From Rhodanobacter humi (GTDB lineage Bacteria > Pseudomonadota > Gammaproteobacteria > Xanthomonadales > Rhodanobacteraceae), in NCBI RefSeq assembly GCF_041107455.1, contig NZ_JBGBPY010000001.1, positions 2,480,001-2,544,000 of the forward strand: a DNA stretch of 64,000 nucleotides, read 5' to 3'. Shown one piece after another: positions 23,442 through 58,312 of the stretch. The notes under the pieces are model-generated. The model searched no databases, had not been told where the DNA came from, and was given only the letters and a program-made list of their open reading frames with translations. Position 1 is the first letter of the stretch, and every line of letters begins with the position of its first letter. Made by a program: the position numbers and the translations under genes.

Positions 23442-26400
23442 TCACTCCGCCGGCTGGGCCGGTTGGCGCAGGGTCTGCCGCACGCTAGGGATCGCGCCGC
23501 TGCGCACCGCCAGTTCGTGGGCGATGTCCACGTAGCCGAGCTGGCGCGCCACATCGGCGGCGGTGCGGCCGAACGCGTCGGCGGCGGCGCGGTCGGCGCC
23601 GCGCGACAGCAGCACGCGGGCCGGCGGCAGCAGCGCGTGCATCGCGCAGGCGTGCAGCGCGGTGACGCCGCGCTGGTCGGCATGCGCCACGTCGGCGCCG
23701 GCTTCCAGCAGCACCGGCACCAGTGCGCCGAGATGGGTGGCGTCGCAGTCGCTGCCGGGACGCAGCTGGGCGCCAAGCAGCAGCAGCAGCGCGGTCTTGC
23801 CTTCGCCGTCGGCGTGGTTGACGTCGGCGCCATGCTTGAACAGCACGTCCAGCAGGCGGCGCGCGCGCAGGCTGTCGTTGTGCTCGAAACCGTATTGCGC
23901 GGCGGCGTGCAGCGCGCTGTGGCCGCGCGCGTCGACGGCGTTGACGTCGGCGCCCGCGGCGAGCAGGGCGTCGGCCAGTTCGGCGCGGCCCATCGCCGCG
24001 GCCACCATCAGCGCGGTGCTCTGGTTCGGCAGGCGCTGGTCGACCTCGGCCTTGCGTTCCAGCAGCAGCGCCACCGTGCTCTCGCGTCCACCGGCCACGG
24101 CGGCGGCCAGCGGGGTGATGCCGTTCGCCGTGGCCAGCGCGGGATCGGCGCCGGCATCGAGCAGGCAGGCGGCGAGTTCGCGGTGGCCGGCACCGCAGGC
24201 GTGCAGCAGCGCGCTGGCACCGTGCGCGTCGACGGTGTCGACCGCGAAGCCCAGTTCCAGCAGTCGCTGCACCGCGACCAGCGCGCCGGCCTGCGCCGCG
24301 GCGGGCAGGTCGTCGGCACGCAGCGGACGGCGTGGCCGCGTCCAGCCACCCCAGTCCAGCCAGCGTTCGATCGCCGGATGTTCCAGCGCCAGGCCCAGCG
24401 GCGTCTCGCCGTTGGTGTCGGCGGCTTCCGCGTCGGCGCCGTGGGCGATCAATGCGCGCACCAGCGGCAATGCGGCTTCGCCGTGTTCCAGCGCGGCGAA
24501 CAGCGGCGTGCGGCCGTCGCGGTCGCGGCTGTTCGGGTTGCAGCCGCGCACGAGCAGGGCCTGCAGCAGCTCGCCGTGGCCGTTCGCCGCGGCGAGTTGC
24601 AGCGGCGTGCGTTCGCGCGCGTCGGGGCCGAACGGATCGGCGCCGCGTTCGAGCAAGGCCAGCGGCAACGCCGCGCCCTGCGCGGAGCCGCCGAGCCGCT
24701 GCAGCGCCTGCGCGAGCAGGCCGGCACCGGCCGGCGTGGCGCCGGCCTGCAGCAGGTCGTCGATGGCTTCGGTGGAAGCGGGCAGTTGCAGCAGCAGGGC
24801 GTCGAACAGGCGGCGGCCCAGCGGCGGCAGCACGGTGCGCTCATCGTTGGCGACGACGGTTTCGTCGCCGTGCTCGTCGTCGGGCTGCTGCGCGGCGAGG
24901 CGTGCCTCGGCAGCCAGGCCGTGGTCCAGCAACCAGCGCCGGGCCTGGCTCTGGCCGGGTTGGGCGAGGTCGAGGTAGAGCCGGGCCAGCTGCGCCTGCG
25001 GCCAGTCGCGCACACGCGCGGCGAAGCCGGAGACGATCGCCCAGTGGCCGAAACGCAGCGCGTCGAGCAGGTGCGCCGGGGTGTCGGCGCCGGAGGAGAG
25101 CGCCGCGTCGCCGAGATTGGCCGGCAGCGGGGTTTCCGGGTCGAGCAGGGCGACCAGATCCCAGCGCCCGGCGGCGGCGGCGTGGTCGAGCGCGCTGCGG
25201 CCGTCGCTGCCCGGAGTCTTCGGTTCGGCGCCCAGCGCGAGCAGGGCACGCACGGTGTCGGCGTGGGCGCGCGGCGACTGGCAGGCGAGCGTGAGCGCGT
25301 CGCGGCCGTGGCTGTCGCGCGTGCGGGCATCGGGTTGTGCCTCGGCGAGCCGCTGCACGATGCCCACCGCGCCGGCGCGCGCGGCTTCCATCAGCGCGGT
25401 GCTGCCGTGGCGGTCGGCCAGCGTGGCGTCGGCGCCGGCGGCGCACAGCGCACGGGCGATCTGCTCGTGGCCCTCGGCGGCGGCGGCGACCAGCGCGCTG
25501 CGGCGGCGCGCGTCCACCGCGTTCACCGCGGCGCGATGCTTGAGCAGCAGCTTCACGCCGGCGGGATCGTCGTCGGCGATGCCGGCGGCGGCGACCAGCG
25601 CGGGCTCGCCGTTCGCCGGCGCGGGCTTCGCGCCGCGTTCGAGCAGGAACTTCGCCAGCGGCCAGTTCGCGGCGCGGCAGGCCACCGCAAGCGGGCTGGC
25701 GCCGGCCTGGTCCAGCGCGTTGATAGTCGCGCCGGCGTCGAGCAGCATCGCCGCCACCATCGGTTCCTCGCTGAGCACCGCGCCGTGCAGGGCGGTGCGG
25801 CCCTCGCTGTCGGCGGCGAGCGGATCGGCACCGTTCGCGAGCAGGGTCATCACCGCCTCGGAACGGCCGTGCCAGCTGTCGCGGGTGGCGGCGAGCAGCG
25901 GGGTGAGCCCGCCGCTGGCGCGGTTGACGTCGGCGCCCTTGGCAATCAGGGCACGCAACAGCCGGGTGTCGGGCAGCAGCGCGGCGAGCATCAGCACGGG
26001 GCGCTGGTCGCGGTCCGTGGCGAGCGGTGCGGTGGCCGGATCGGCGCCGGCTTCGACCAGGGCCAGCGCGCGTTCGATGTCGCCGTCGCGGGTGGCGGCG
26101 AGCAGGGCGGCGGCCTGTTCCGGCGTGCCGGCGATGCGCTCCTGTTCGCTCAGGGGCGCGGCGACCGGCGCAGCGGATTTGGCGGTGGCCGGCGCATCGG
26201 CCAGTTCGGCACGACGGCGATGGCGATCGTGCTGGACGCACAGCAGGGTGCGCAGCGTGCGATTGGCCACGATCAGGCAACCCAGCGGCAGCAGCAGCAC
26301 GCCGTACAGCGCCAGCGCGGCGGTGCGGATTTCCGAGGGCAGCATGCCGTACAGGCCGCTCAGCGCGATCGCGCCCCAGGTCAGCGCCAGCAGGGCCAGC

Positions 26401-26921
26401 GCGGCGGGCAGGAAGTGGCTGAAGAAGCGCTCCTCGCGCGCGAGGTGGCGACCGAACATCAGGCTGCGCAAGGTGGCGGTGAAGATCCACGAGCCGTCGT
26501 GCCGCGCGGGGTAGGCGTCGTCCCACACGAACACCAGGCCGAACGCGGGCCATGGCCGCCACAGCACGGCCAGCGCCAGCACCAGGGTGGCGACCAGCGC
26601 CAGCGTGGCGGCGAGGCTGTGCGACTGCGAGAGCGACAGCATCGGCCACGCCACCAGCGCGAACACGATCACCGCGTAGCCGGTGAACATCACCAAGTGC
26701 GCGGCGCCCCGGCGCAGCACGGTGCGCGCGAAGCTGGGCTCGGGATCGAAGCCGATCGCATGGCAGACAGCAGCCATCGTCAGCGCGTTCGCCAGCAATA
26801 GCGGGATCAGGGTCAGCGGGTGGGCGACCAGGCCGGCCAGCGCCACGGCGAGCAGTCCGGGAACGAACCAGGCGAGGGCCTGCAGGAACGGAGGGCGGCG
26901 GCGCGATTTGGTCTGGGTCAT
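23442..26921 (-). CDS. large membrane-anchored ankyrin-repeat protein
   Basis: This is a 1,159-residue protein. The first 230 residues hold about six hydrophobic segments (for example LAWFVPGLLAVALAGLVAH and LVMFTGYAVIVFALVAWPML). After a charged linker (DRHRRRAELADAP), ankyrin repeats run from about residue 265 to the end, roughly twenty of them with the consensus G.TPL..A...G......LL..GADVN. The middle, around residues 590-680, is degenerate. It is likely an inner-membrane scaffold with a cytoplasmic ankyrin solenoid. The partner is unknown. Start is ATG 26921; an in-frame GTG lies at 26927. The gene is convergent with the GT9 gene (42 bp). Confidence 0.85.
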   Translation of the reverse strand: MTQTKSRRRPPFLQALAWFVPGLLAVALAGLVAHPLTLIPLLLANALTMAAVCHAIGFDPEPSFARTVLRRGAAHLVMFTGYAVIVFALVAWPMLSLSQSHSLAATLALVATLVLALAVLWRPWPAFGLVFVWDDAYPARHDGSWIFTATLRSLMFGRHLAREERFFSHFLPAALALLALTWGAIALSGLYGMLPSEIRTAALALYGVLLLPLGCLIVANRTLRTLLCVQHDRHRRRAELADAPATAKSAAPVAAPLSEQERIAGTPEQAAALLAATRDGDIERALALVEAGADPATAPLATDRDQRPVLMLAALLPDTRLLRALIAKGADVNRASGGLTPLLAATRDSWHGRSEAVMTLLANGADPLAADSEGRTALHGAVLSEEPMVAAMLLDAGATINALDQAGASPLAVACRAANWPLAKFLLERGAKPAPANGEPALVAAAGIADDDPAGVKLLLKHRAAVNAVDARRRSALVAAAAEGHEQIARALCAAGADATLADRHGSTALMEAARAGAVGIVQRLAEAQPDARTRDSHGRDALTLACQSPRAHADTVRALLALGAEPKTPGSDGRSALDHAAAAGRWDLVALLDPETPLPANLGDAALSSGADTPAHLLDALRFGHWAIVSGFAARVRDWPQAQLARLYLDLAQPGQSQARRWLLDHGLAAEARLAAQQPDDEHGDETVVANDERTVLPPLGRRLFDALLLQLPASTEAIDDLLQAGATPAGAGLLAQALQRLGGSAQGAALPLALLERGADPFGPDARERTPLQLAAANGHGELLQALLVRGCNPNSRDRDGRTPLFAALEHGEAALPLVRALIAHGADAEAADTNGETPLGLALEHPAIERWLDWGGWTRPRRPLRADDLPAAAQAGALVAVQRLLELGFAVDTVDAHGASALLHACGAGHRELAACLLDAGADPALATANGITPLAAAVAGGRESTVALLLERKAEVDQRLPNQSTALMVAAAMGRAELADALLAAGADVNAVDARGHSALHAAAQYGFEHNDSLRARRLLDVLFKHGADVNHADGEGKTALLLLLGAQLRPGSDCDATHLGALVPVLLEAGADVAHADQRGVTALHACAMHALLPPARVLLSRGADRAAADAFGRTAADVARQLGYVDIAHELAVRSGAIPSVRQTLRQPAQPAE

Positions 26922-26995
26922 CGTCACAGTATAGGAACCGTGATGGACACAGACGGTAACCTCGCGTTAACGCGGCGACCGATGTGCGAGCCGGC

Positions 26996-29037: not shown

Positions 29038-29067
29038 AGCCTCCCCGCGCGAGCGGGGAGGCTTTTT
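29038..29067 (+). terminator. strong intrinsic terminator after fadL-like gene
   Basis: An 11-bp perfect stem AGCCTCCCCGC/GCGGGGAGGCT with a GCGA loop is followed by TTTTT. It lies 13 bp past the porin stop and ends at the stop codon of the convergent aldehyde dehydrogenase gene. Confidence 0.9.
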
Positions 29068-30485
29068 CATCCCCGCTTGAGCAGCAAGTCCAGCATCTGC
29101 CGAAAGCGTTTGCCGTAGGGCGGGTTGAGCAGGCCGGCACCGTTCCAGCGTGCCTGGCGGAACACCGGCTTCAGGTGCGAGAACGTGCGGAAGCCGGCCT
29201 CGCCGTGATAGCCGCCCATGCCGGAGGCGCCCACGCCGCCGAACGGCAGCCCGTGCTGGGCGATGTGGTAGAGCGTGTCGTTGACGCTGACGCCGCCAGC
29301 GTGGGTGCGTGCGAGCACGGCATCGATGCGCGCGGAGTCGGTCTCGAACAGGTACAGCGCCAGCGGATGCGCACGGGCGGCGATGTAGGCGATCGCCTCG
29401 TCCAGCGTGTCGTAGGGCACCAGCGGCAGCAGCGGGCCGAAGATTTCCTCGCGCATCACCGGCATGGCGTCGTGGACGTTCGTGAGCAGCACGGGCGGCA
29501 GCAGGCGGCGCGCGGCATCGGGTGTGGCGTCGCTCAGCCGTTCGATGGTGGCGCCGGCCGCTTGCGCTTCGTCGCGCAGCGCCGACAGCCGCGCGTAGTG
29601 GCGGTCGTCGATGATGCTGGCGTACTGCGGGTTGTGCGTGAGGTCGGGATACTGCCGCGCGGTGGCCGTGCGCGCCGCGGCGACGAATTCACCCATGCGT
29701 GTGCGCGGCAGCAGCACATAGTCGGGCGCGATGCAGGTCTGCCCGGCGTTGACGAGCTTGCCGAACACGATGCGTTCGACCGCCTGCTCCAGCCGCGCGC
29801 CGGGGCCGACGATCGCGGGCGACTTGCCGCCCAGCTCCAGTGTCACCGGGGTGAGGTTGGCCGCGGCCGCGCGCATCACGTGATGGCCCACCGCAGTGGA
29901 ACCGGTGAACAGCAGATGGTCGAACGGCAGCGCGGCAAAGGCCTGGCCCACCGCGGCATCGCCGTTCACCACCCACACTTCGTCGGGCGCGAAATGCCGG
30001 CCGATCAGCTCGGCGAACAACGCGGAGAAGCGTGGCGTGTACTCGCTCATCTTCAGCATCACGCGGTTGCCGGCGGCCAGTGCGTCGACCAGCGGTCCCA
30101 CCGCGAGGTAGAGCGGGTAGTTCCACGGCACGATGATGCCGACCACACCCAGCGGTTGCGGACGCAGCTCGGTGCGCGCGGGCAGGAACAGCAGGTCGGC
30201 GAGCCGTCGCCGTGGCCGCATCCAACGCCGGCCGTGGCGCAGTGCGTGGCGCACGGCGGACAGGCTGGGGAAGACCTCCAGCAGATCGGTTTCCTCGACC
30301 GGGCGGTTGCCGAAATCGGCGTGGATCGCGGCGGCGATGGCGGCCCGTTGGTCTTGCAGCAGGCTTTCCAGCTTGCGCAGCCGGGCTGCCCGCACCGGCC
30401 AGTCCGGCAGCGGGTCGCGCGCCTGCGTATCGCGCATGCGCTGCAGGATGGCGTGGATTTCGGGCAGTCCGTCGACAGGAGGCAT
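29067..30485 (-). CDS. aldehyde dehydrogenase (coniferyl-aldehyde-dehydrogenase-like)
   Basis: This 472-residue NAD(P)-dependent enzyme oxidises an aldehyde to the acid. The general base is Glu217 (TLELGGKSPAIV) and the nucleophile Cys251 (NAGQTCIAPDYVLL). PWNYP near residue 120, FTGSTAVG near 193 and the C-terminal PFGGVGASGMGGYHG are also present. It resembles the coniferyl/long-chain aldehyde group more than betaine-type enzymes. The ATG at 30485 comes 2 bp after the TonB receptor stop, so they are almost certainly co-transcribed. It is the last gene of the cluster. Confidence 0.92.
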   Translation of the reverse strand: MPPVDGLPEIHAILQRMRDTQARDPLPDWPVRAARLRKLESLLQDQRAAIAAAIHADFGNRPVEETDLLEVFPSLSAVRHALRHGRRWMRPRRRLADLLFLPARTELRPQPLGVVGIIVPWNYPLYLAVGPLVDALAAGNRVMLKMSEYTPRFSALFAELIGRHFAPDEVWVVNGDAAVGQAFAALPFDHLLFTGSTAVGHHVMRAAAANLTPVTLELGGKSPAIVGPGARLEQAVERIVFGKLVNAGQTCIAPDYVLLPRTRMGEFVAAARTATARQYPDLTHNPQYASIIDDRHYARLSALRDEAQAAGATIERLSDATPDAARRLLPPVLLTNVHDAMPVMREEIFGPLLPLVPYDTLDEAIAYIAARAHPLALYLFETDSARIDAVLARTHAGGVSVNDTLYHIAQHGLPFGGVGASGMGGYHGEAGFRTFSHLKPVFRQARWNGAGLLNPPYGKRFRQMLDLLLKRG

Positions 30486-30487
30486 GG

Positions 30488-32956
30488 TCAGAACTTCGCG
30501 TGCAATTCCACGCCCCAGGTGCGTGGCGGCATGATGTTGGCGTAGGGCGTGCCGAACACCTGCCCGGCGGTATTGTCCACGCCGTACACGTAGCGGTGGT
30601 TGAACAGGTTGCTGGCGAACACGGCCACGCCCCAGCGGTCGTGCGCCGCGTCCCAGCCCAGCCGCACGTCGGTGCGGTTCTGCGCGGTGCCGACGGAGAA
30701 GTTGGGACTCATCTGACAAGTGCCCTGCAGTTGCGAACCGCTGTTGCAGCGCGTCTTAGAGCGGTAGCCGTAGGTCCAGTTGAAGCTCACGTCACCGTTG
30801 GCCACGTCGTGCCACGTATAGCTGGCGTGGGCGGCGAAGGAATACTTCGGCACGCCGGTGGGCTGGCCGCTGACGTCGATGCCGTTCTGCACGGTGTTGA
30901 GATAGGTCTGGTCGATGTAGGCGGCGTTGAAACCAATCTGCAGCGCATCGATCGGTTGCCACTGCAGTTCCAGCTCCGCGCCGGTGGCCTGCTCGTTGCT
31001 GCTGCTGATGCCGTAGTGCGGGATGGTGGTGTCGGTGAACAGGATCAGGCTCTGCTGATTGAGGTACCGGTAGTGGTAGATCGAGCCGTTGAGCAGCAGG
31101 TTCAGCTCCGGGAACAGCGTCTTTACCCCCGCCTCGTAGTTCCACACCGTCTCCGGCGCATAGGTCGAATTGAACTGCTGGAAGCCGAAGCCGCCGGCCT
31201 GGTAGCCCTTGGCCACCGAGACATAGCCCATGATGTTGGGCGTGAACTTGTAGTCGAGCACCGCGCGCGGGCTGACGTCGGTCCAGCTGCGGTCGGCGTT
31301 CACCAGCACGCCCACCGGCGAGCCGGTGCCCTGGGTGAAGATGACGTTCTGGCCGAACATGGCCAGGGCGTACTGCGCCTCGGGCGGCAGCATCGCGGTG
31401 ATGCCGGCGTTGTTCAGCGCCAGCACGGTGTCGTCGAACTGCGGTGCCTCGCGCGGCGGGTTGTACCAGCTGAAACTCTTCTGGTCGTGGGTGAAGCGCA
31501 CGCCGGTGGTGAGGTTGAGGCGGTCGGTGAGGTGCCAGATCACGTCGCCGTACACCGCCCACGACTTGTAGTTCTCGACGTTCAGGATGTGCTCGCGCCA
31601 CATGTCGCCGAGCAAGGTGTAGGGCACGCCCATCGCGGCCAGCCCGTTGCTGATGTCGGTGAGCGGGGTGCCGGCGCCCAGCACGTTCTGCGCCAGGGTG
31701 TCGAGGCTGTCGGTGGTGACGCCGGCCTCGCTGGTCTGGCGCCCCTGCTCGCTGTACCAGCTGGTGCCGGCCACCCAGTCGATCAGGCTGGTGTTGCCGC
31801 TCAGCTTGAACTCCTGGTACCAGCTGTTGTTGTGCTCGTAGTTGCCGGTTTCGAGGTAGTCGACGATGTGGTTGGTGCCGTCGTAGTCGCCCAGGTTCGC
31901 CGTGTCGAAGTTGCGCCACGCGGTGGTGGAGGTGAGGCTGCCCCAGCCGAAGTTGTGGTCGATGGTGAGCGTGCTGCCGTCGAAACGCCGCTTCTCGATC
32001 GGGTTCACCGTGTCGTTGTACAGCGGCGCATGCAGCGGATTCAGGAACGTGGCCGGGTCGGCCGGAAAGGGTGCGCGCTGGTTGGTGTCGCTGGTCAGCG
32101 GGATCAGGCCGAACGCCGGGTGAGGCGGCTGCTTGAGCTGCTCGTGGTCCCAGGACAGCAGCACGCGGGTATCCGGCGTGAGGTTCCAGCGGTACACCAC
32201 GCGCGTGCCCCAGTCGTCGTTGACGCCGTAGTGCTTGCCGGTGGCGGCATCCTTCACCCAGCCGTCGCTCTGGTTGTCCATCACGCTGACGCGCACCGCC
32301 ATGTCCTGGCTGAGCGGGATGTTGACCAGCGCGTCGCCGTAGCGCTCGCCGTAGTTGCCGAAGCGCAGCCGGCCCTTGGCCTCGAAATGGTCGCTGGGCT
32401 CGTTGGTGACGACGGAAATGGCGCCACCCGCCGCATTGCGGCCGAACAAGGTGCCCTGCGGGCCTTTCAGCACTTCGATGCGCTTCATGTCGTTGAAGGC
32501 CAAGAGCGCGCCGCCGGTGCTGCCGGCGTAGACGCCGTCGACGTACACGCCCACCGGCTGGTCGACGCCCATGCCGAAGTTGCCGGAGGACTGCACGCCG
32601 CGCAGTTCGAACGAAGGCTGGGTGGGTTGGGTGGAGCCCACCACCAGGCCGGGCACGAAGATGTCGATCTTGCTGATGTCGGTGGCGGCCAGCGTGTCGA
32701 CCTGCTTCGCGGTGACGATCTGCAGCGCGATCGGCACGTCCTGCACTTCTTGGGTGCGGCTCTGCGCAGTGACGGTGACGGCGCCGAGCTGCTTGGCCTT
32801 GGCCTCGTCGGTTTTCGCGGCCGGCTTGGCCGGCGCGTTCGACGGCGTGGCGTCCTGCGCGGCCAGCGCGGGCAGCGGCGCGCACAGCAGCAGCAGGGCG
32901 CCGCCGTGCAGTACTTGGCGCAGGCAGGCGGACAGTGGTCGTTGGCGCATCGTCAT
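30488..32956 (-). CDS. TonB-dependent outer-membrane receptor
   Basis: This 822-residue protein has a signal peptide (MTMRQRPLSACLRQVLHGGA to about ALAAQ). A likely TonB box LGAVTVTAQ lies near residue 57. The plug domain follows, with VDQPVGVYVDGVYAG, IEVLKGPQGTLFGRNAAGGAISV and the start of the 22-strand barrel near residue 200. The C-terminus ends in VELHAKF. The plug and barrel resemble receptors found in catabolic gene clusters of sphingomonads and caulobacters rather than a classical siderophore receptor, but the ligand is not known. It follows the diheme cytochrome gene by 80 bp. Confidence 0.92.
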   Translation of the reverse strand: MTMRQRPLSACLRQVLHGGALLLLCAPLPALAAQDATPSNAPAKPAAKTDEAKAKQLGAVTVTAQSRTQEVQDVPIALQIVTAKQVDTLAATDISKIDIFVPGLVVGSTQPTQPSFELRGVQSSGNFGMGVDQPVGVYVDGVYAGSTGGALLAFNDMKRIEVLKGPQGTLFGRNAAGGAISVVTNEPSDHFEAKGRLRFGNYGERYGDALVNIPLSQDMAVRVSVMDNQSDGWVKDAATGKHYGVNDDWGTRVVYRWNLTPDTRVLLSWDHEQLKQPPHPAFGLIPLTSDTNQRAPFPADPATFLNPLHAPLYNDTVNPIEKRRFDGSTLTIDHNFGWGSLTSTTAWRNFDTANLGDYDGTNHIVDYLETGNYEHNNSWYQEFKLSGNTSLIDWVAGTSWYSEQGRQTSEAGVTTDSLDTLAQNVLGAGTPLTDISNGLAAMGVPYTLLGDMWREHILNVENYKSWAVYGDVIWHLTDRLNLTTGVRFTHDQKSFSWYNPPREAPQFDDTVLALNNAGITAMLPPEAQYALAMFGQNVIFTQGTGSPVGVLVNADRSWTDVSPRAVLDYKFTPNIMGYVSVAKGYQAGGFGFQQFNSTYAPETVWNYEAGVKTLFPELNLLLNGSIYHYRYLNQQSLILFTDTTIPHYGISSSNEQATGAELELQWQPIDALQIGFNAAYIDQTYLNTVQNGIDVSGQPTGVPKYSFAAHASYTWHDVANGDVSFNWTYGYRSKTRCNSGSQLQGTCQMSPNFSVGTAQNRTDVRLGWDAAHDRWGVAVFASNLFNHRYVYGVDNTAGQVFGTPYANIMPPRTWGVELHAKF

Positions 32957-33036
32957 CCCGGTTCTCCCCTTGCATCGTCACGCGTGGCGCGGTCACCGCG
33001 CCGAAAGGATCGTTTCCTGACTCGGTGTGGCGGTGT

Positions 33037-34182
33037 TCAATGCACGATGTCGCAGTTGCCCTTCAGCGAGAGGATCCAGGCGCGGATCAGCACCTCACCT
33101 TCGCGGTCCACCGTGCTGCGGCCGATCTCCGGCATCATCACGCCGGGTCGGGTGGAGGCCATGCGGTACATCAGGATCGACTCGTCGGGCTTGCCGGGCA
33201 CGATGTCGAACAGGCGGCCGCCGGTGGCGGGGCCGGCCGCCTCGGGCGACTTGCACAGGCCGAGGCGGTGGTCTTCCGGCGTGTCGGGGCCGAGCGAGAA
33301 GCCGGTGACGCTGGCCACGCCGTTCGGGTTGTGGCACATCGCGCAGTTGATATCGAGGTACGCCCGCGCCCGCGCGTCGAGCGAGGCGGAAGGGTCGCGC
33401 CAATTGGCGTCGCGTGGCACGTCCTTCAGCGCGGGCAGGCCCATCAGGTAGCCCATCGCGACCAGGTGCTCCAGCTGGTTCTGCCGGCCGCTGCCATAGC
33501 CGTATTCCCGGTTCATGTGGCGCGCCTTGGGGCCGATCGGCTGGATGTGCCGGCTCAGCATGTCGGCCTCGTGGCAGGTGACGCACTGGCCCTCGTCCGG
33601 CACCACGTAGTTGAAGTCCTCGCGTCCGCCCTGGGCGTCGACCAGGGTCAGCGCCTGCACGTCGCCGGTGCGCGCCAGGCCGGCTTCGGTCTGCGCCTCG
33701 TTCCACACGTAGGTGAACGGCGCCCAGCCATCCTTGCGGCGCACCAGCAGGCGCGTCTCGACCATGTGCACGCTGGCGAGGTCCAGGCCCTGGCCGGCGA
33801 AGTCGCCGCTGTAGTCCAGCGTGCGCGCCACGTCGCTGAACTTGCCGTCGGCGGCACGCGGGTAATAGAAGGTCTTGCTGATGATGGTGCCGACCGGGAA
33901 ATCGAGCGGCCCGTTCGCCGTGTATTTCGCCGATGCGCCCTTCGGCATCCAGATCGTGCGCAGCTTGTGCACGTAGTCGGTGAACAGATGGCTGTTGAGG
34001 CTGTACGGCACCACGCCGGCGTTGAGCTCGAGCTTGCCGTCGCGCGCCTCGACCACGTGCCAGTCGCTGAGCATAGTCGGGCGGCCGTCGGCGTGGAACG
34101 CCACCGCCGGCATCGCGCGGTGGCAGCCGGCCAGCAGCAACAACGCGGCAGGCAACAGGTAACGGAAAAACTTCACCGGCAT
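33037..34182 (-). CDS. diheme c-type cytochrome lipoprotein, HNE_0200/SO2930 family
   Basis: This 381-residue protein is exported as a lipoprotein (LLLLAGC, Cys20). It has two haem c sites, CVTCH at residues 200-204 and CAMCH at 280-284. The long N-terminal domain (VVPYSLNSHLFTDYVHKLRTIWMP, then FPVGTIISKTFYYP) and PIGPKARHMNREYGYGSGRQNQLEHL are characteristic of the family described as the regular partner of a parallel beta-helix protein. A redox role in the periplasm is likely but the reaction is unknown. It starts 4 bp after the beta-helix gene stop. Confidence 0.88.
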   Translation of the reverse strand: MPVKFFRYLLPAALLLLAGCHRAMPAVAFHADGRPTMLSDWHVVEARDGKLELNAGVVPYSLNSHLFTDYVHKLRTIWMPKGASAKYTANGPLDFPVGTIISKTFYYPRAADGKFSDVARTLDYSGDFAGQGLDLASVHMVETRLLVRRKDGWAPFTYVWNEAQTEAGLARTGDVQALTLVDAQGGREDFNYVVPDEGQCVTCHEADMLSRHIQPIGPKARHMNREYGYGSGRQNQLEHLVAMGYLMGLPALKDVPRDANWRDPSASLDARARAYLDINCAMCHNPNGVASVTGFSLGPDTPEDHRLGLCKSPEAAGPATGGRLFDIVPGKPDESILMYRMASTRPGVMMPEIGRSTVDREGEVLIRAWILSLKGNCDIVH

Positions 34183-34186
34183 GCGC

Positions 34187-35422
34187 TCAGACCTTCGGCT
34201 CGGGGTTCAGCACCACCGCCGGCAGCTTCGGCAGCGTGCACTGGAACGGCTTCATGTCGGTGTCGGGATGCTTGTAGCCGTTCGGGCCGTCGGCATTCAC
34301 CACGCCGCTGACGTCCTGGATGCAGATGCGGTCCTCCGGCGGCAGTTCCTTGCCCTTGAATTTGGGATCGCTGTAGCCGTCCCACAACACGTCGGGGAAG
34401 TGGCCGGAGAGGCCGAACAGCGCGGTCTTCAGCGCCTTGAATTCCAGCCCGCTGGGCGAGTCGCCGCCGCCCTTGAGGCGGTTGCCGTAGACGAAGATGC
34501 CCTTCGGATACGGATCGTAGTTGGGCGCCACGCCGGTCTTGCTGGCGTAGTTGGTGGAATAGAAGCTGGAGATGATGATGTTCGCCGTCTTGTTGTCGGC
34601 GATGTCGTTGTCGAAGATCTCCACCTTCGGGTTGGAGTTCACCACGATGCCCGAGCCGGCCGGCACGCTGGCCACCGCCGAGCCGTTCGCGGCGAAGTTG
34701 TCGTGGTTGTTCGTGGTCACCGTGTTCTTGAACACGCGGGTGGAATGGCCGTCCATCAGCAGGTCGGGCATGTTGAAGATCAGGATGCCGCCGGAGTTGT
34801 CGGTCGCGGTGTTGCCGTAGACGTCGGCGTCCACCGTGTTCTCGATCTCGATGCCGGCGACGTTGCCGTGCACCTTGTTGTTGCGCACGATCACGTTGGT
34901 GGACTGGCCCACATAGATGCCGGAGTCGGAGGCGCCGATCGCCTCGGAATCCTCGATCAGCGTGTTCTGCGTCTTCACCGGGTAGATGCCGTAGGGGCCG
35001 TTGCTGGTCTTCGAGCCGTCGGTCCACTGCGTGCGCACGCCGTGGATGGTGATGTTCCTGCCGTGGTTGATCTTCAGCGCATCGCCCTTGGTGTCCTCGA
35101 TCGTGAGGTTCTCGATGGTGAAGTCGTTCGCGTTCACCAGCAGGCCCTCGGGGCCGACCACCTGGCCCTTGAACGAGAGCACGGTCTGGTCCATGCCGGC
35201 GCCCTTGATGGTGACGCCATCAGTGCGCAGGCTTAGGCCGCGCTTCAAGTGGTAATGGCCGGCGGGAATCTCGATCACGCTGCCGGGCTTGGCGTCCAGC
35301 AACTGTTCCTGCAGCTTCGCCTCGAAGCTGGCGTCGGTCTGGTTCTGCGGCGCGGGGGCCTGCTGGCCACTGCAGCCGGTGAGCGCGGTGGCGAATGCCA
35401 CGGCAATGAGCGTCTTGCGCAT
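34187..35422 (-). CDS. parallel beta-helix repeat lipoprotein
   Basis: This 411-residue lipoprotein has lipobox LTGC (Cys17). Short Asn/Asp-rich turns repeat from residue 55 to about 290 (for example [33 protein letters not shown]-like turns, [24 protein letters not shown]). This gives a right-handed beta-helix like pectate lyases and sugar epimerases. The C-terminal part ([19 protein letters not shown] onward) contains two cysteines. The family and its diheme partner recur together in many proteobacteria, but no activity has been assigned. Start is the ATG at 35422. Confidence 0.88.
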
Positions 35423-35564
35423 GATCGTTGAACTCCCCATTCGAACGGCGGTGCGGATGGCACCACTGTCGCCCAAGGCGACGCCGCGGGGGAGGGCAAA
35501 ACGGTCAGTCGGTGGGGGGCAAAGCGGCCAGTATGCGGGGCGCAGGTGCGCCCTCTGCATGAAA

Positions 35565-35658
35565 GCTCGTCATCCCGGCGCAGGCCGGGATCCAGTGGCG
35601 ATTACGCTTGGCCAAGCCATGCGGTTACTGGATTCCGGCCTGCGCCGGAATGACGAGC
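35565..35658. repeat. inverted repeat, GGCCTGCGCC family
   Basis: Left arm 35565-35596 (GCTCGTCATCCCGGCGCAGG...) and right arm 35627-35658 pair over about 32 bp with a few CC/TT differences and a 30-bp spacer. It lies 7 bp after the AraC-type gene stop and 142 bp before the beta-helix gene. A solo arm occurs at 2559-2585. Confidence 0.88.
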
Positions 35659-35665
35659 AGAAGCT

Positions 35666-36760
35666 TCAAGCCGCGGCGCGCCGCGCTTCCTGCGGCGCCA
35701 TGCCGGTCCAGCGCTTGAACGCGCGGCGGAACTCGCGCGGGTCGCTGTAGCCGACCTCGCCGCCGATCTCGGCCACGCTCAGCGCGCCGGCCTGCAGCAG
35801 CTGCAGCGCGCGTTCGGCGCGCACGCGGTCGTGGATTTCGCGGAACACGCGGCCGCTCTCGGTGAGCCGGCGCCGCAGCGAGCGCTCGCTGAGGTTGAGC
35901 GTGCGCGCCACGTCGGTGAGCGTGGGCTGCTGGCGCAATCGGCTGCGCAGCAGGCGTTCCACCGCCGCGACGATTTCCTGGTGCGGCTCGCCGCCGTCCG
36001 CAGTGCGCTGCTGCGCGCACAGCGCCAGCGCCTGCTGCGCGGTGAGCGGGTTGTAGCCGGGCAGCGGCTGGGCCAGCCACTGCGTGCCGATCAGCAGCCG
36101 GCAGCGCGGCGCGTCGAAACGCAGTTCGCAACCGAACAGCTGCGCATACTCGTCGGCGTGGTGCGGGCGCGGATAGGCCAGTTCCACCCGCAGCGGGCAT
36201 AGTCCGGGGCCGACCAGCTCGCGCGCGATCATCGTCGAGCTGGCGAACAGCTCCTCGCAGAAGAACGGCAGCAGGCTGGCGTCGTCGAACAGCGGCAGCG
36301 CGACCATCGCCACCGCGTGTTCGTCGACCGCCTCGAAGGAGAGATCGAGCAGGCAGCCGCAGATCTTGTGGTGGGCGATGCCGGCTAGCATCGCCTCGCC
36401 GAACGTGCGCGAGGTCATCATCGCCAGCCCGAGCAGGCCGAAGCCGCCGACACTGCCCTCGCGGCCGATGCGCAGGCCCGCGTCGGTCACGTCTGCCGCC
36501 GCCAGCGCGGCCAGCGCGCGCTGCACGAACAGGCTGGCCTGGCGGTAGGAGACGCGCAACGCCGGGTCGGCGATCTGCGCGCGGTTGAGGGCCAGCCCGG
36601 CGAACCACGACCGGCTGTCCACGCCGCAGCCATCCGCCAGCTGCACCAGGTAGAGCAGCTTGTTGGTGGGAAATTCCGCCGCGGTATAACGCGGGTCGTC
36701 CGTGGCCACGGTGAGCGCGCTGGCGGAATGAAAGCCGATCATGCCGGCGGGTCGTGCCAT
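35666..36760 (-). CDS. AraC-family transcriptional regulator
   Basis: This 364-residue regulator has an N-terminal sensing domain of the OruR/arabinose-binding type (residues about 20-220). It carries a C-terminal double helix-turn-helix in the last 95 residues (TLTDVARTLNLSERSLRRRL and LSVAEIGGEVGYSDPREFRRAFKRWTG). The ATG at 36760 is the likely start. It is the nearest regulator to the beta-helix/cytochrome/TonB/aldehyde dehydrogenase genes, on the same strand and upstream, so it is the best candidate for controlling them. It is also next to putA. The effector is unknown. Confidence 0.9.
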   Translation of the reverse strand: MARPAGMIGFHSASALTVATDDPRYTAAEFPTNKLLYLVQLADGCGVDSRSWFAGLALNRAQIADPALRVSYRQASLFVQRALAALAAADVTDAGLRIGREGSVGGFGLLGLAMMTSRTFGEAMLAGIAHHKICGCLLDLSFEAVDEHAVAMVALPLFDDASLLPFFCEELFASSTMIARELVGPGLCPLRVELAYPRPHHADEYAQLFGCELRFDAPRCRLLIGTQWLAQPLPGYNPLTAQQALALCAQQRTADGGEPHQEIVAAVERLLRSRLRQQPTLTDVARTLNLSERSLRRRLTESGRVFREIHDRVRAERALQLLQAGALSVAEIGGEVGYSDPREFRRAFKRWTGMAPQEARRAAA

Positions 36761-36882
36761 GGTGCCGATGCTCCGACGCAGGCAGGCCGGAAGCAGCCTG
36801 CAGTCCGGACTTTCTAGCACGCCCGCGCCGCCGACCGCTTGCGCAATGCACAAGCGGTCGGGCGAATGCGGCGTTTATTTCG

Positions 36883-56370: not shown

Positions 56371-58170
56371 TCAGTCCGGTGTGGCCGCGGGCCGCACGCG
56401 CGCGGCCAGCAGTTCGCGCAGTTCGGCCTTCTCGGCGTCGGCCAACGGGCCGCTGCGCATCTTCGCGTGCAGTGTCTCGCGGCGCAGCGCCACGGCCTGC
56501 TCGTCCATGCGCCGCAGGGCGTCCATGAATTCGGTGCGTTGTGCCTCCGGCTCGCCCACCACCGCGGCGGCCATCAGCTTCTGCAGCGCGGGGTATTCCG
56601 GGCGTTCGGCGAAGTGCTCCACCAGCGTCGCCGGATTGATGCCGGGGCGGCTGCGCGCCAGGTCCAGCAACTCGGCGAGCAGGCCCACGCCGGGCTTGTC
56701 CAGGTTGAGGAAGCGGTAGGGCTTCTCCACTTGGTCGGCCATGCCGGGCTGGGCCAGCAGCAGCGCGATGGCACTGCGCACCAGCGAGCGCTGCGCGGCC
56801 GTCGGCCGCTGCACGGCGCGATGTGCGGCGGGATCCGCCGCGAGGCGCGCGCTGGCGCCGCTGCGCTTTTCCAGCTCCTGCGCCATCAGGTCGCGGAACG
56901 CGCCGTCCGGCAGCCGGGCGATCAGCGGACGGGCGCGTTCGGCGAGCCGCGCACGGCCGTCGAGACTGACCATGTCCACGTCGCGCGCCAGTTCGTCGAA
57001 GAAATAGTCGGACAGCGGCGTGGCGTTTTTCAGGCGCTGCTCGAACCCGGCCTTGCCTTCCTTGCGCACCAGCGTATCCGGATCCTCGCCCTCGGGCAGG
57101 AACAGGAAGTAGGCCTGGCGTCCGTCGCGCAGCCGCGGCAGCGCGGCGTCCAGCGCCTTCCACGCCGCCGCGCGGCCGGCGCGGTCACCGTCGAAGCAGA
57201 ACACCACGTCCGGCGAGGCACGGAACAGCAGCTCGGTGTGCTCGGGCGTGGTGGCGGTGCCAAGTGTGGCCACCGCGATCGGCAGGCCGGCCTGGTGCAG
57301 CGCGATCACGTCCATGTAGCCCTCCACCACCACGATGCGCTGCAGGTTCGCGTTGGCCTGCTTCACCTGCCACAGGGCGAACAGCTCGCGGCCCTTGTGG
57401 AACAGCGGCGTTTCGGGCGAGTTGAGGTATTTCGGGGAGCTTTTTTCAGGAGTGCGGGCAGGGATGCCCGCTTCTTGATCTTCGCGCGAAGGACTCGCGC
57501 TCGAAGAACCGCTGAGCACCCTTCCACCGAACGCGATCACCCGCCCGCGCCGGTCGAGGATCGGAAACATCAGCCGTTCGCGGAAGCGGTCGTACTTGCT
57601 GCCGCGCTCGCCGGTGGAAACCATGCCCGCTTCGGTGAGCAGTTCCATCCGCCGCGGCGTGTTGCCCAGCGCCTTGATCACGCCGTCATAGCCGGCGGGT
57701 GCCCAGCCGAGGCGGAAGCGCGCGATGGTGTCGGCGTCCAGCCCCCGTTTCTTGCAATACGCCTGCGCCTCGGCGTTCTTCGGCAACTGTTCCTGGTACC
57801 AGCCGGTGCTGGCGTCGAGCAGGGCGTAGAGGTCGGTCTTGTCCTCGCGCGGGCGCTCGTCGCGGCCGCCTTCGCGCGGCACGGTGAGGCCCACCGACTG
57901 CGCCAGCTCCTCCACCGCGTCGGGAAACTCCAGCCGCTCGTAGTCCATCAGGAACTTGATCGCGCTGCCGTGCGCGCCGCAGCCGAAGCAGTGGAAGAAC
58001 TGCTTGGCGGGGCTGACGTAGAACGAGGGCGTGCGTTCGTCGTGGAACGGGCAGCAGGCGGTGTGTTCGCGGCCGGCCTTCTTCAACGGCACGCGCCGCT
58101 CGATCACGTCGACGATGTCGACGCGGGCAAGCAGTTCGTCGATGAAGCTGTCGGGAATCAGGCCGCGCAT
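56371..58170 (-). CDS. dnaG: DNA primase
   Basis: DnaG makes RNA primers for replication. The 599-residue protein has an N-terminal zinc site (Cys40, His43, Cys61, Cys64), the RNA polymerase core and a TOPRIM motif VVEGYMDVIALHQAG near residue 281. Between GGRVL (215-219) and PKYLNSPET (246) there is an extra stretch of about 26 residues (220-245: SGSSSASPSREDQEAG and IPARTPEKSS) where E. coli has four. This stretch is encoded by a hairpin element (57440-57510) also found near glk. The reading frame is intact. Confidence 0.95.
   Translation of the reverse strand: MRGLIPDSFIDELLARVDIVDVIERRVPLKKAGREHTACCPFHDERTPSFYVSPAKQFFHCFGCGAHGSAIKFLMDYERLEFPDAVEELAQSVGLTVPREGGRDERPREDKTDLYALLDASTGWYQEQLPKNAEAQAYCKKRGLDADTIARFRLGWAPAGYDGVIKALGNTPRRMELLTEAGMVSTGERGSKYDRFRERLMFPILDRRGRVIAFGGRVLSGSSSASPSREDQEAGIPARTPEKSSPKYLNSPETPLFHKGRELFALWQVKQANANLQRIVVVEGYMDVIALHQAGLPIAVATLGTATTPEHTELLFRASPDVVFCFDGDRAGRAAAWKALDAALPRLRDGRQAYFLFLPEGEDPDTLVRKEGKAGFEQRLKNATPLSDYFFDELARDVDMVSLDGRARLAERARPLIARLPDGAFRDLMAQELEKRSGASARLAADPAAHRAVQRPTAAQRSLVRSAIALLLAQPGMADQVEKPYRFLNLDKPGVGLLAELLDLARSRPGINPATLVEHFAERPEYPALQKLMAAAVVGEPEAQRTEFMDALRRMDEQAVALRRETLHAKMRSGPLADAEKAELRELLAARVRPAATPD
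57440..57510. repeat. hairpin element inserted in frame within dnaG
   Basis: It holds GCGGG-CAGGGATG-CCCGC (57454-57471) followed by a second bulged palindrome CTTCGCGCG/CGCGCTCGAAG. It aligns with 9654-9730, sharing GTGCGG, CAGGGATG, CCGC and TTGATCTTCGCG in the same order. Confidence 0.85.
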
Positions 58171-58312
58171 GGTCCCCGTAGTTTAGAGGGTCGATCCTTC
58201 ACGGGGGCGAATCGGCCAGCAGGGGTGGCAGGCCGGCCAATCCGCCGGCCGACGGCCGGTGGTGGCCGAGCCGCTGGTTAGCATGCATGGGGCTACGGCA
58301 GGGGTGGCAACG

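Follow-up and report, generated by a model that had tools for sequence, protein, structure and literature searches.

A conserved module of AraC regulator, beta-helix protein, diheme cytochrome and TonB-dependent receptor genes in Xanthomonadales

The closest described relatives of the system analyzed here belong to two protein families that NCBIfam names 'parallel beta-helix domain-containing protein' (TIGR03805) and 'SO2930 family diheme c-type cytochrome' (TIGR03806), and which are described as proteins without a known function that recurrently occur as a pair and in some cases are fused. We analyzed this pair, hereafter BH (beta-helix lipoprotein) and DH (diheme c-type cytochrome lipoprotein), in a stretch of 64,000 nt from the 4.15 Mb genome of Rhodanobacter humi (contig positions 2480001-2544000; hereafter, the window). 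Both genes are located on the minus strand, BH at 34187..35422 and DH at 33037..34182, between the gene for an AraC-family regulator (35666..36760, minus strand) and that for a TonB-dependent receptor (TBDR; Plug plus beta-barrel; 30488..32956, minus strand). The comparison with other genomes showed that, in Xanthomonadales, the four genes AraC-BH-DH-TBDR are a conserved module. A sequence-only reading of the window had listed these genes together with a fifth gene on the same strand, for an aldehyde dehydrogenase (ALDH), and a convergent FadL porin gene. All of them are present in the sequence, profile scans confirmed their families, and the spacings are as claimed, namely 243 bp between AraC and BH, 4 bp between BH and DH, 80 bp between DH and TBDR, and 2 bp between TBDR and ALDH. 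The observation was correct, and conservation of the gene order extends far outside this genome. The arrangement is not due to chance, as AraC, BH, DH and TBDR follow one another in the same way in two bacterial families. A search of the open-access literature by family name or gene combination retrieved no paper describing the AraC/operator/TBDR module or the function of the pair.

BH and DH are widespread as a pair. When GTDB contigs were scanned with a BH alignment, there were at least 570 relatives in at least 586 pattern matches, and the best 80 of these were retained as named loci (L numbers below; G numbers denote genomes). In 79 of these best 80 loci, BH is followed by a DH of the same orientation, and the distance between the two matches is -3 to 302 bp; in the sole exception, L105, the contig stops 94 bases behind BH. 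TIGR03805 is represented in 65 of 299 Xanthomonadales genomes, by one copy each, 61 of which score above 400 bits. DH adjoins BH in all 59 Xanthomonadales loci that were examined, a set that leaves out the window genome, G478 (418.8 bits) and the low-scoring G374, G399, G468 and G473. Among the sampled Pseudomonadota genomes, 53 of 397 contain TIGR03805, and DH is adjacent to or fused with BH in 39 of 40 further loci of this phylum, the exception being the low-scoring relative G904 (the low-scoring matches G913, G906, G814, G770, G839, G997 and G934 were not included). The samples of 80, 59 and 40 loci overlap in genomes, so that the counts are not independent. Eight genomes of five families encode both parts in a single frame, always with BH first: three genomes of family f204 (G916, 881 aa; G827, 881 aa; G877, 880 aa), G729 (1019 aa), G845 (909 aa), G038 (1023 aa), G112 (1044 aa), and G229, in which the frame is cut by the contig end. 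Furthermore, the BH and DH distances across 71 loci were correlated (r 0.68 versus at most 0.15 in 200 permutations), a value that includes shared ancestry and is supporting evidence only. Because they are linked or fused wherever examined, BH and DH act as one unit, as the sequence-only reading had assumed, apart from a low-scoring subfamily. The latter comprises TIGR03805 matches of about 180-190 bits (G374, G399, G468, G473 and G904), for which no adjoining DH was found, and which possibly represent a separate family under the same name.

In Xanthomonadales, the pair comes with two further genes. TBDR is the next gene behind DH in 57 of the 59 loci; one of the two exceptions is at a contig end, and in the other TBDR is displaced by 9 kb. 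AraC is present within the retrieved stretch of 56 of the 59 loci, next to BH in 46 of them and displaced by a few kb in 10. In Rhodanobacteraceae, AraC and BH share a strand except in genus g2; in Xanthomonadaceae, the two are on opposite strands. The suggestion that TBDR is a partner of the pair thus holds for Xanthomonadales, where the two are nearly always together, but not beyond, where the pair mostly occurs without TBDR: altogether, an orthologous TBDR is found beside the pair, or at most 2.2 kb from it, in only 24 of the 80 named loci, and 18 of these are Xanthomonadales. Therefore, AraC and TBDR are not needed for the basic function of the pair, as most loci outside Xanthomonadales lack them.

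The 243 bp between AraC and BH contain two repeats. The one noted in the sequence-only reading is indeed there, an inverted pair (35571..35652, without strand) with 25-bp arms at 35571-35595 and 35628-35652; in an upstream alignment of BH from the window and 21 relatives, it was visible in the window row only. The other, absent from that reading, is a tandem direct repeat, TGGCCGCTTTGCCCCCC / TGACCGTTTTGCCCTCCC (35490..35530, minus strand; half-sites 35490-35507 and 35513-35530), with a period of 23 bp, which appears in the upstream alignment as TGGCCGnTTTGCCCCCC / TGGCCGTTTTGCCCTCCC. A matrix was built only from the window and three congeners, so that 3 of the 59 tested loci are training loci. 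In 58 of these 59 Xanthomonadales loci, a matrix pair upstream of BH, mostly at 22-23 bp, scores better than every control segment, with only one half-site clear in some of the 58 (e.g., L136, L138, L166 and L167); in loci of other groups, the test was positive for 4 of 61. Because the repeat is conserved, we propose that it is the AraC operator, and we infer that AraC binds there. A genome scan for the half-site with up to two mismatches returned six sites, of which only the two copies at BH have a single mismatch and the other four have two. As the reversed control pattern gave 11 sites, a genome-wide operator regulon was rejected. A weaker pair of half-sites with a period of 21 and three mismatches each lies on the minus strand at 58201-58239, a short distance in front of dnaG (56371-58170); no such pair occurred when the window was shuffled five times, but it may still be due to chance. 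A pattern scan of the cluster found no promoter-like sites, and terminator-like sites were not in excess (4, compared to a mean of 4.3 in shuffles).

The BH protein scored 403.3 bits against TIGR03805, far above the curated cut-off of 141.5 bits, and thus belongs to this family; it is 85% identical to a protein of Rhodanobacter glycinis. Eight plasmid records match BH, and one of them, from Novosphingobium (52% identity), covers at least 80% of it. In the window, the lipoboxes of BH (LTGC-S) and DH (LAGC-H) both lack Asp at position +2, and by a simple rule a lipobox is present in BH of 151 and in DH of 152 of 179 loci. By the usual sorting rule, lipoproteins without Asp at +2 go to the outer membrane, and BH and DH are probably outer-membrane lipoproteins. 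In the alignment of the window with 74 of 79 usable loci, the residues D110, D114, K117, W133, N141, Y144, Y147, D166, Y170, Q173, N187, E192, E194, N195 and D200 are invariant in all 75 rows, and many invariant residues seem to lie on successive coils of one face, as mapped from the strand list. No conserved His or Cys was seen in this alignment besides C367 and C395, which form a probable disulfide.

The AlphaFold2 model of BH (mean pLDDT 91.8, pTM 0.89) was compared with the PDB using Foldseek. The top matches were the mannuronan C5-epimerases AlgE6 and AlgE4 (E 6e-9 to 6e-8), followed by polysaccharide lyases. Together with the invariant K117, Y144, Y147, D166, Y170, Q173, E192 and E194, this result would fit an epimerase- or lyase-like beta-helix, in which case TBDR might import an oligosaccharide and DH might oxidize its end group. 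However, with TM-scores of only about 0.5 and an rmsd of about 7 Å, the likeness is at the fold level only. The best sequence match of BH to a solved epimerase has an E value of 0.33, so that membership in AlgE is not shown, and no glycan-degrading gene was detected among the neighbors that were scanned for families, a minority of all neighbors. A role of the pair in glycan metabolism is therefore quite unlikely. We give even less credit to a role of BH in assembling the heme protein or loading it, without any binding of a substrate, as in NosD-like maturation. It is true that BH is weakly similar to NosD (43.1 bits for TIGR04247 and 48.7 bits for PF05048) and that genes for ABC-transporter ATPases occur in 8 of 89 clustered loci. 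Yet the score for TIGR04247 is so far below the cut-off of 300 bits that NosD membership was ruled out, the ATPase genes are located 1.2-8.9 kb from BH, and they were rejected as NosF because the two that were scanned resemble ATPases of export and amino-acid transporters, and none of the 25 best families listed for them is named NosF. In addition, the conserved His and Cys of BH are limited to the two probable disulfide cysteines, and a covalent fusion to DH would be odd for a maturation factor.

DH likewise belongs to its family, with 388.8 bits for TIGR03806 compared to a curated cut-off of 313.3 bits. Its heme motifs are C200-H204 and C280-H284, and two CxxCH motifs are present in all 72 rows of the DH alignment (the window and 71 of 78 loci). 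Met350, conserved in 71 of the 72 rows, is a candidate axial ligand of heme 2. For the distal ligand of heme 1, there is no strictly conserved candidate in these rows; His222 is a possible one, present in only 61 rows, replaced by Asn or Gln in 8 and by other residues in the rest. For the AlphaFold2 model of DH (pLDDT 90.5, pTM 0.89), Foldseek detected no PDB entry of similar fold at E<=0.001, and the comparison of the sequence with solved structures returned a short cytochrome c stretch only, with no full-length relative. DH homologues also occur without BH. TIGR03806 matches were found in 39 of 369 genomes in a survey of the class, 7 of them above the cut-off, and a Pfam scan of ten TIGR03806 open reading frames without BH showed that the DH domain is preceded by a GSDH propeller in nine of them, and gave only a cytochrome match for the tenth. 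For one such propeller, the solved relatives include quinoprotein glucose dehydrogenase, which ranked below Hedgehog-interacting protein. Because the DH domain is fused behind propellers resembling pyrroloquinoline quinone (PQQ) dehydrogenases in other proteins, DH is likely to be an electron acceptor or electron-transfer partner, and by this analogy the electron-accepting role that the sequence-only reading had assigned to it is probable.

Taken together, these results lead us to a reading that we favor tentatively, somewhat short of calling it probable, namely that AraC-BH-DH-TBDR consists of a sensor, an operator-driven two-part oxidoreductase of the outer membrane and a dedicated TonB importer. 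AraC would sense a compound and activate the operon from the tandem repeat in front of BH, the presumed binding site. The substrate would be held by BH, which is a right-handed beta-helix and has numerous polar and aromatic positions that do not vary, and DH would accept the electrons on its two c-type hemes, from where they would reach the cytochrome pool of the periplasm and the oxidase. TBDR might import the ligand or the oxidized product. The aldehyde dehydrogenase encoded behind TBDR may oxidize an aldehyde product in some lineages, and would be outside the core. This division of labor between BH and DH is suggested by the fusions of DH behind PQQ-dehydrogenase-like propellers. The regulator type, an ALDH resembling class 3, and a FadL gene beside a distant fusion hint weakly at a hydrophobic alcohol or aldehyde as the substrate.

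Several observations weigh against this reading. No beta-helix is known to carry a redox cofactor, and none was predicted in BH. Therefore, catalysis would have to take place in DH, unless a cofactor has escaped notice. If DH is the catalyst, BH-DH could be a new class of outer-membrane oxidoreductases, with a beta-helix devoid of cofactors as the substrate domain in place of the quinoprotein propeller and with catalysis by a diheme protein whose fold has no match in the PDB; in Xanthomonadales, it would be present or absent as a single block together with its sensor, operator and importer. This is, in our view, an improbable solution. The weak similarity to NosD described above counts on the same side, as does the occurrence in some genomes (L028) of a DH without BH within 1.5 kb. 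An orthologous TBDR is missing near 56 of the 80 named loci, and few loci outside Xanthomonadales have AraC. Two loci of other groups that do have both AraC and TBDR contain one good half-site (L073) or none (L063), and with 6 operator-pattern sites compared to 11 for the reversed control, no wider regulon is visible. Finally, SO_2931, a presumed relative treated below, is discussed in print as a surface reductase, with the opposite direction of electron flow (PMC5955497, PMC5357785, PMC10986466).

The two remaining genes of the locus are best regarded as resident neighbors, which ALDH and FadL were not in the sequence-only reading. In the corresponding route, a hydrophobic or aromatic alcohol would be taken up by FadL and TBDR, oxidized by BH-DH outside of the inner membrane, and then by ALDH inside, so that all six genes would form one pathway. 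The class-3-like ALDH (PF00171; 29067..30485, minus strand) begins with an ATG that is separated by 2 bp from the stop codon of TBDR, and its functional link to the module is uncertain. Among solved structures, it is closest to steroid, fatty and class-3 aldehyde dehydrogenases; against the benzaldehyde dehydrogenase MdlD, it scored 296.7 bits, below the cut-off of 550 bits (the scanned frame started at 30665 and is longer than the gene). The FadL-family porin gene (PF03349; 27480..29024, plus strand) is convergent to the five-gene cluster. In the retrieved stretches, ALDH accompanies 31 of 39 cassettes in Rhodanobacteraceae but only 1 of 20 in Xanthomonadaceae, and the respective values for a convergent FadL are 23 of 39 and 0 of 20. 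FadL is the only PF03349 gene in the genome of the window, and a test of 60 genomes of Rhodanobacteraceae was positive for PF03349 in 59, comprising 39 of 40 with BH and 20 of 20 without it. The possibility that FadL is under the control of the same operator was rejected, because no operator-like site is present nearby.

Eight FadL loci of Rhodanobacteraceae without BH were opened. Five of them (L226-L230) keep the order PutA - gap - ALDH - FadL - YcgL - ankyrin-like protein, while AraC, BH, DH and TBDR are all absent together. As to the other three, L233 has PutA-FadL without ALDH, the ankyrin-like gene accompanies FadL in L231, and in L232 FadL is the only one of the genes sought. In the window, a frame of 1161 aa at 23442-26927 (minus strand) looks by eye like such an ankyrin-repeat membrane protein, and this gene is near FadL in many loci without BH. 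The gap of L226 aligns over 152 bp with 75% identity to positions 36715-36864 of the window, which contain the start of AraC, and, as judged from this alignment, L226:6803-6941 is a deletion scar that retains the first codons and the upstream region of AraC in a cassette-less congener. An Mrr-type restriction gene fills the gap between PutA and ALDH in L227-L229, and the gap of L230 is 247 bp long. In the ALDH tree (FastTree, midpoint-rooted, without support values), L226, L228 and L229 group with their own genera, and L227 and L230 are placed elsewhere in the same cassette-bearing clade. These five loci thus probably reflect loss of the cassette with retention of ALDH, more than once. ALDH and FadL were rejected as core members on these grounds: they stay in 5 of the 8 loci without BH, the retained ALDHs fall within the cassette-bearing Rhodanobacteraceae clade, and PF03349 is nearly universal. 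Nonetheless, dropping ALDH altogether is opposed by the related ALDHs that lie inside the cassettes of Stenotrophomonas nitritireducens (L065), its sister L131 and two metagenomic lineages (L055 and L063, in the latter between TBDR and BH), and a FadL-family gene is located directly upstream of the distant BH-DH fusion of L224. A route comprising all six genes is unlikely; what stands of it is a four-gene module of regulator, proposed two-part BH-DH oxidoreductase and importer.

Outside Xanthomonadales, clustering of the neighbors revealed no shared partner of BH besides DH, and short-chain dehydrogenases in a number of loci. Four loci from three families (L208, L214, L215 and L218) have TBDRs of a different kind (30-34% identical) adjoining the pair, and genes for AraC regulators of the PF12625 type are located beside the fusion of L037 and behind a second DH in L188. 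In L037, a gene next to the fusion and its AraC (L037:8028-9143) resembles a wax ester synthase by eye. The Pseudomonas copies of the pair are near a radical-SAM gene, an alanine racemase gene and a DnaB helicase gene; the remaining copies have diverse neighbors, and in L089, L105, L106, L108 and L119 a gene of one cluster, which is of the HupE/UreJ type where it was scanned (L119), is located 59-170 bp upstream of BH.

The fusions of family f204 would connect the pair to Shewanella oneidensis (see also PMC4837345 and PMC3584217), for which SO_2931 is presented as a diheme outer-membrane lipoprotein (PMC5357785). The fusion is present in three f204 genomes; a second DH follows it in L188 and L191, and not in the examined stretch of L195. 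Genes of the MtrC/OmcA family occur in all three genomes and full MtrB matches in both that were tested. Because of the gene order, heme count, presence of MtrC/OmcA/MtrB, TIGR family name and printed description of SO_2931, we infer that SO_2931 is a BH-DH fusion and SO_2930 the second DH. By analogy to what has been proposed for the surface cytochromes of Shewanella, BH-DH of the window might act reductively, as a cytochrome in the outer membrane that delivers electrons to an acceptor outside the cell or to a chelated metal, which TBDR would then import. This would agree with the resemblance of TBDR to siderophore receptors, which is at the superfamily level, as the 146.2 bits for TIGR01783 are below the cut-off of 223.5, and with one weak MtrB/PioB-like gene in the genome of the window (G000:C1:3935171-3937369; 176.8 bits, below the cut-off of 240.05). 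However, of 12 pair-bearing genomes analyzed for MtrB/PioB, only the two of f204 had full matches, and of the ten others, eight had no match, G1004 a trace and the window genome the weak match mentioned. Regulation by iron was rejected, since the best Fur-like match between 26 and 41 kb of the window reached 12 of 19 positions and was inside a gene. Furthermore, the DH homologues are fused to dehydrogenase-like propellers, and AraC contains a PF12625 ligand domain (123.7 bits) in addition to HTH_18, a type of regulator best known for organic ligands. A reductive role is thus doubtful, and an oxidoreductase under the proposed control of AraC is the reading that we tentatively retain.

The comparison with known systems can be summarized as follows. 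The named families closest to the AraC of the window are QhpR, the regulator of quinohemoprotein amine dehydrogenase (145.9 bits), GliR (119.3 bits) and CypR (88.5 bits); with cut-offs of 250, 570 and 500 bits, respectively, all of these scores are far too low for the same regulators (see also PMC8151288). The GSDH-TIGR03806 proteins share the C-terminal DH module behind another domain, which is a propeller similar to PQQ sugar dehydrogenases instead of a beta-helix, and their DH domains score below the TIGR03806 cut-off. SO_2931/SO_2930 of S. oneidensis, as represented by f204, would share a BH-DH fusion of 880-881 aa, which in two genomes is followed by another DH; the f204 loci differ from the window in being fused, in a DUF3083 gene in front (L188), in AraC on the other strand, and in the lack of an orthologous TBDR, although L195 has a TBDR of another kind at a distance of about 1.6 kb. 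Lastly, the TIGR03805/TIGR03806 pair itself is alike in consisting of adjacent, sometimes fused lipoproteins, and the difference here is that it is embedded in a conserved AraC/operator/TBDR module, which gives an unexplained pair a testable setting, in that the question becomes that of the inducer of one promoter.

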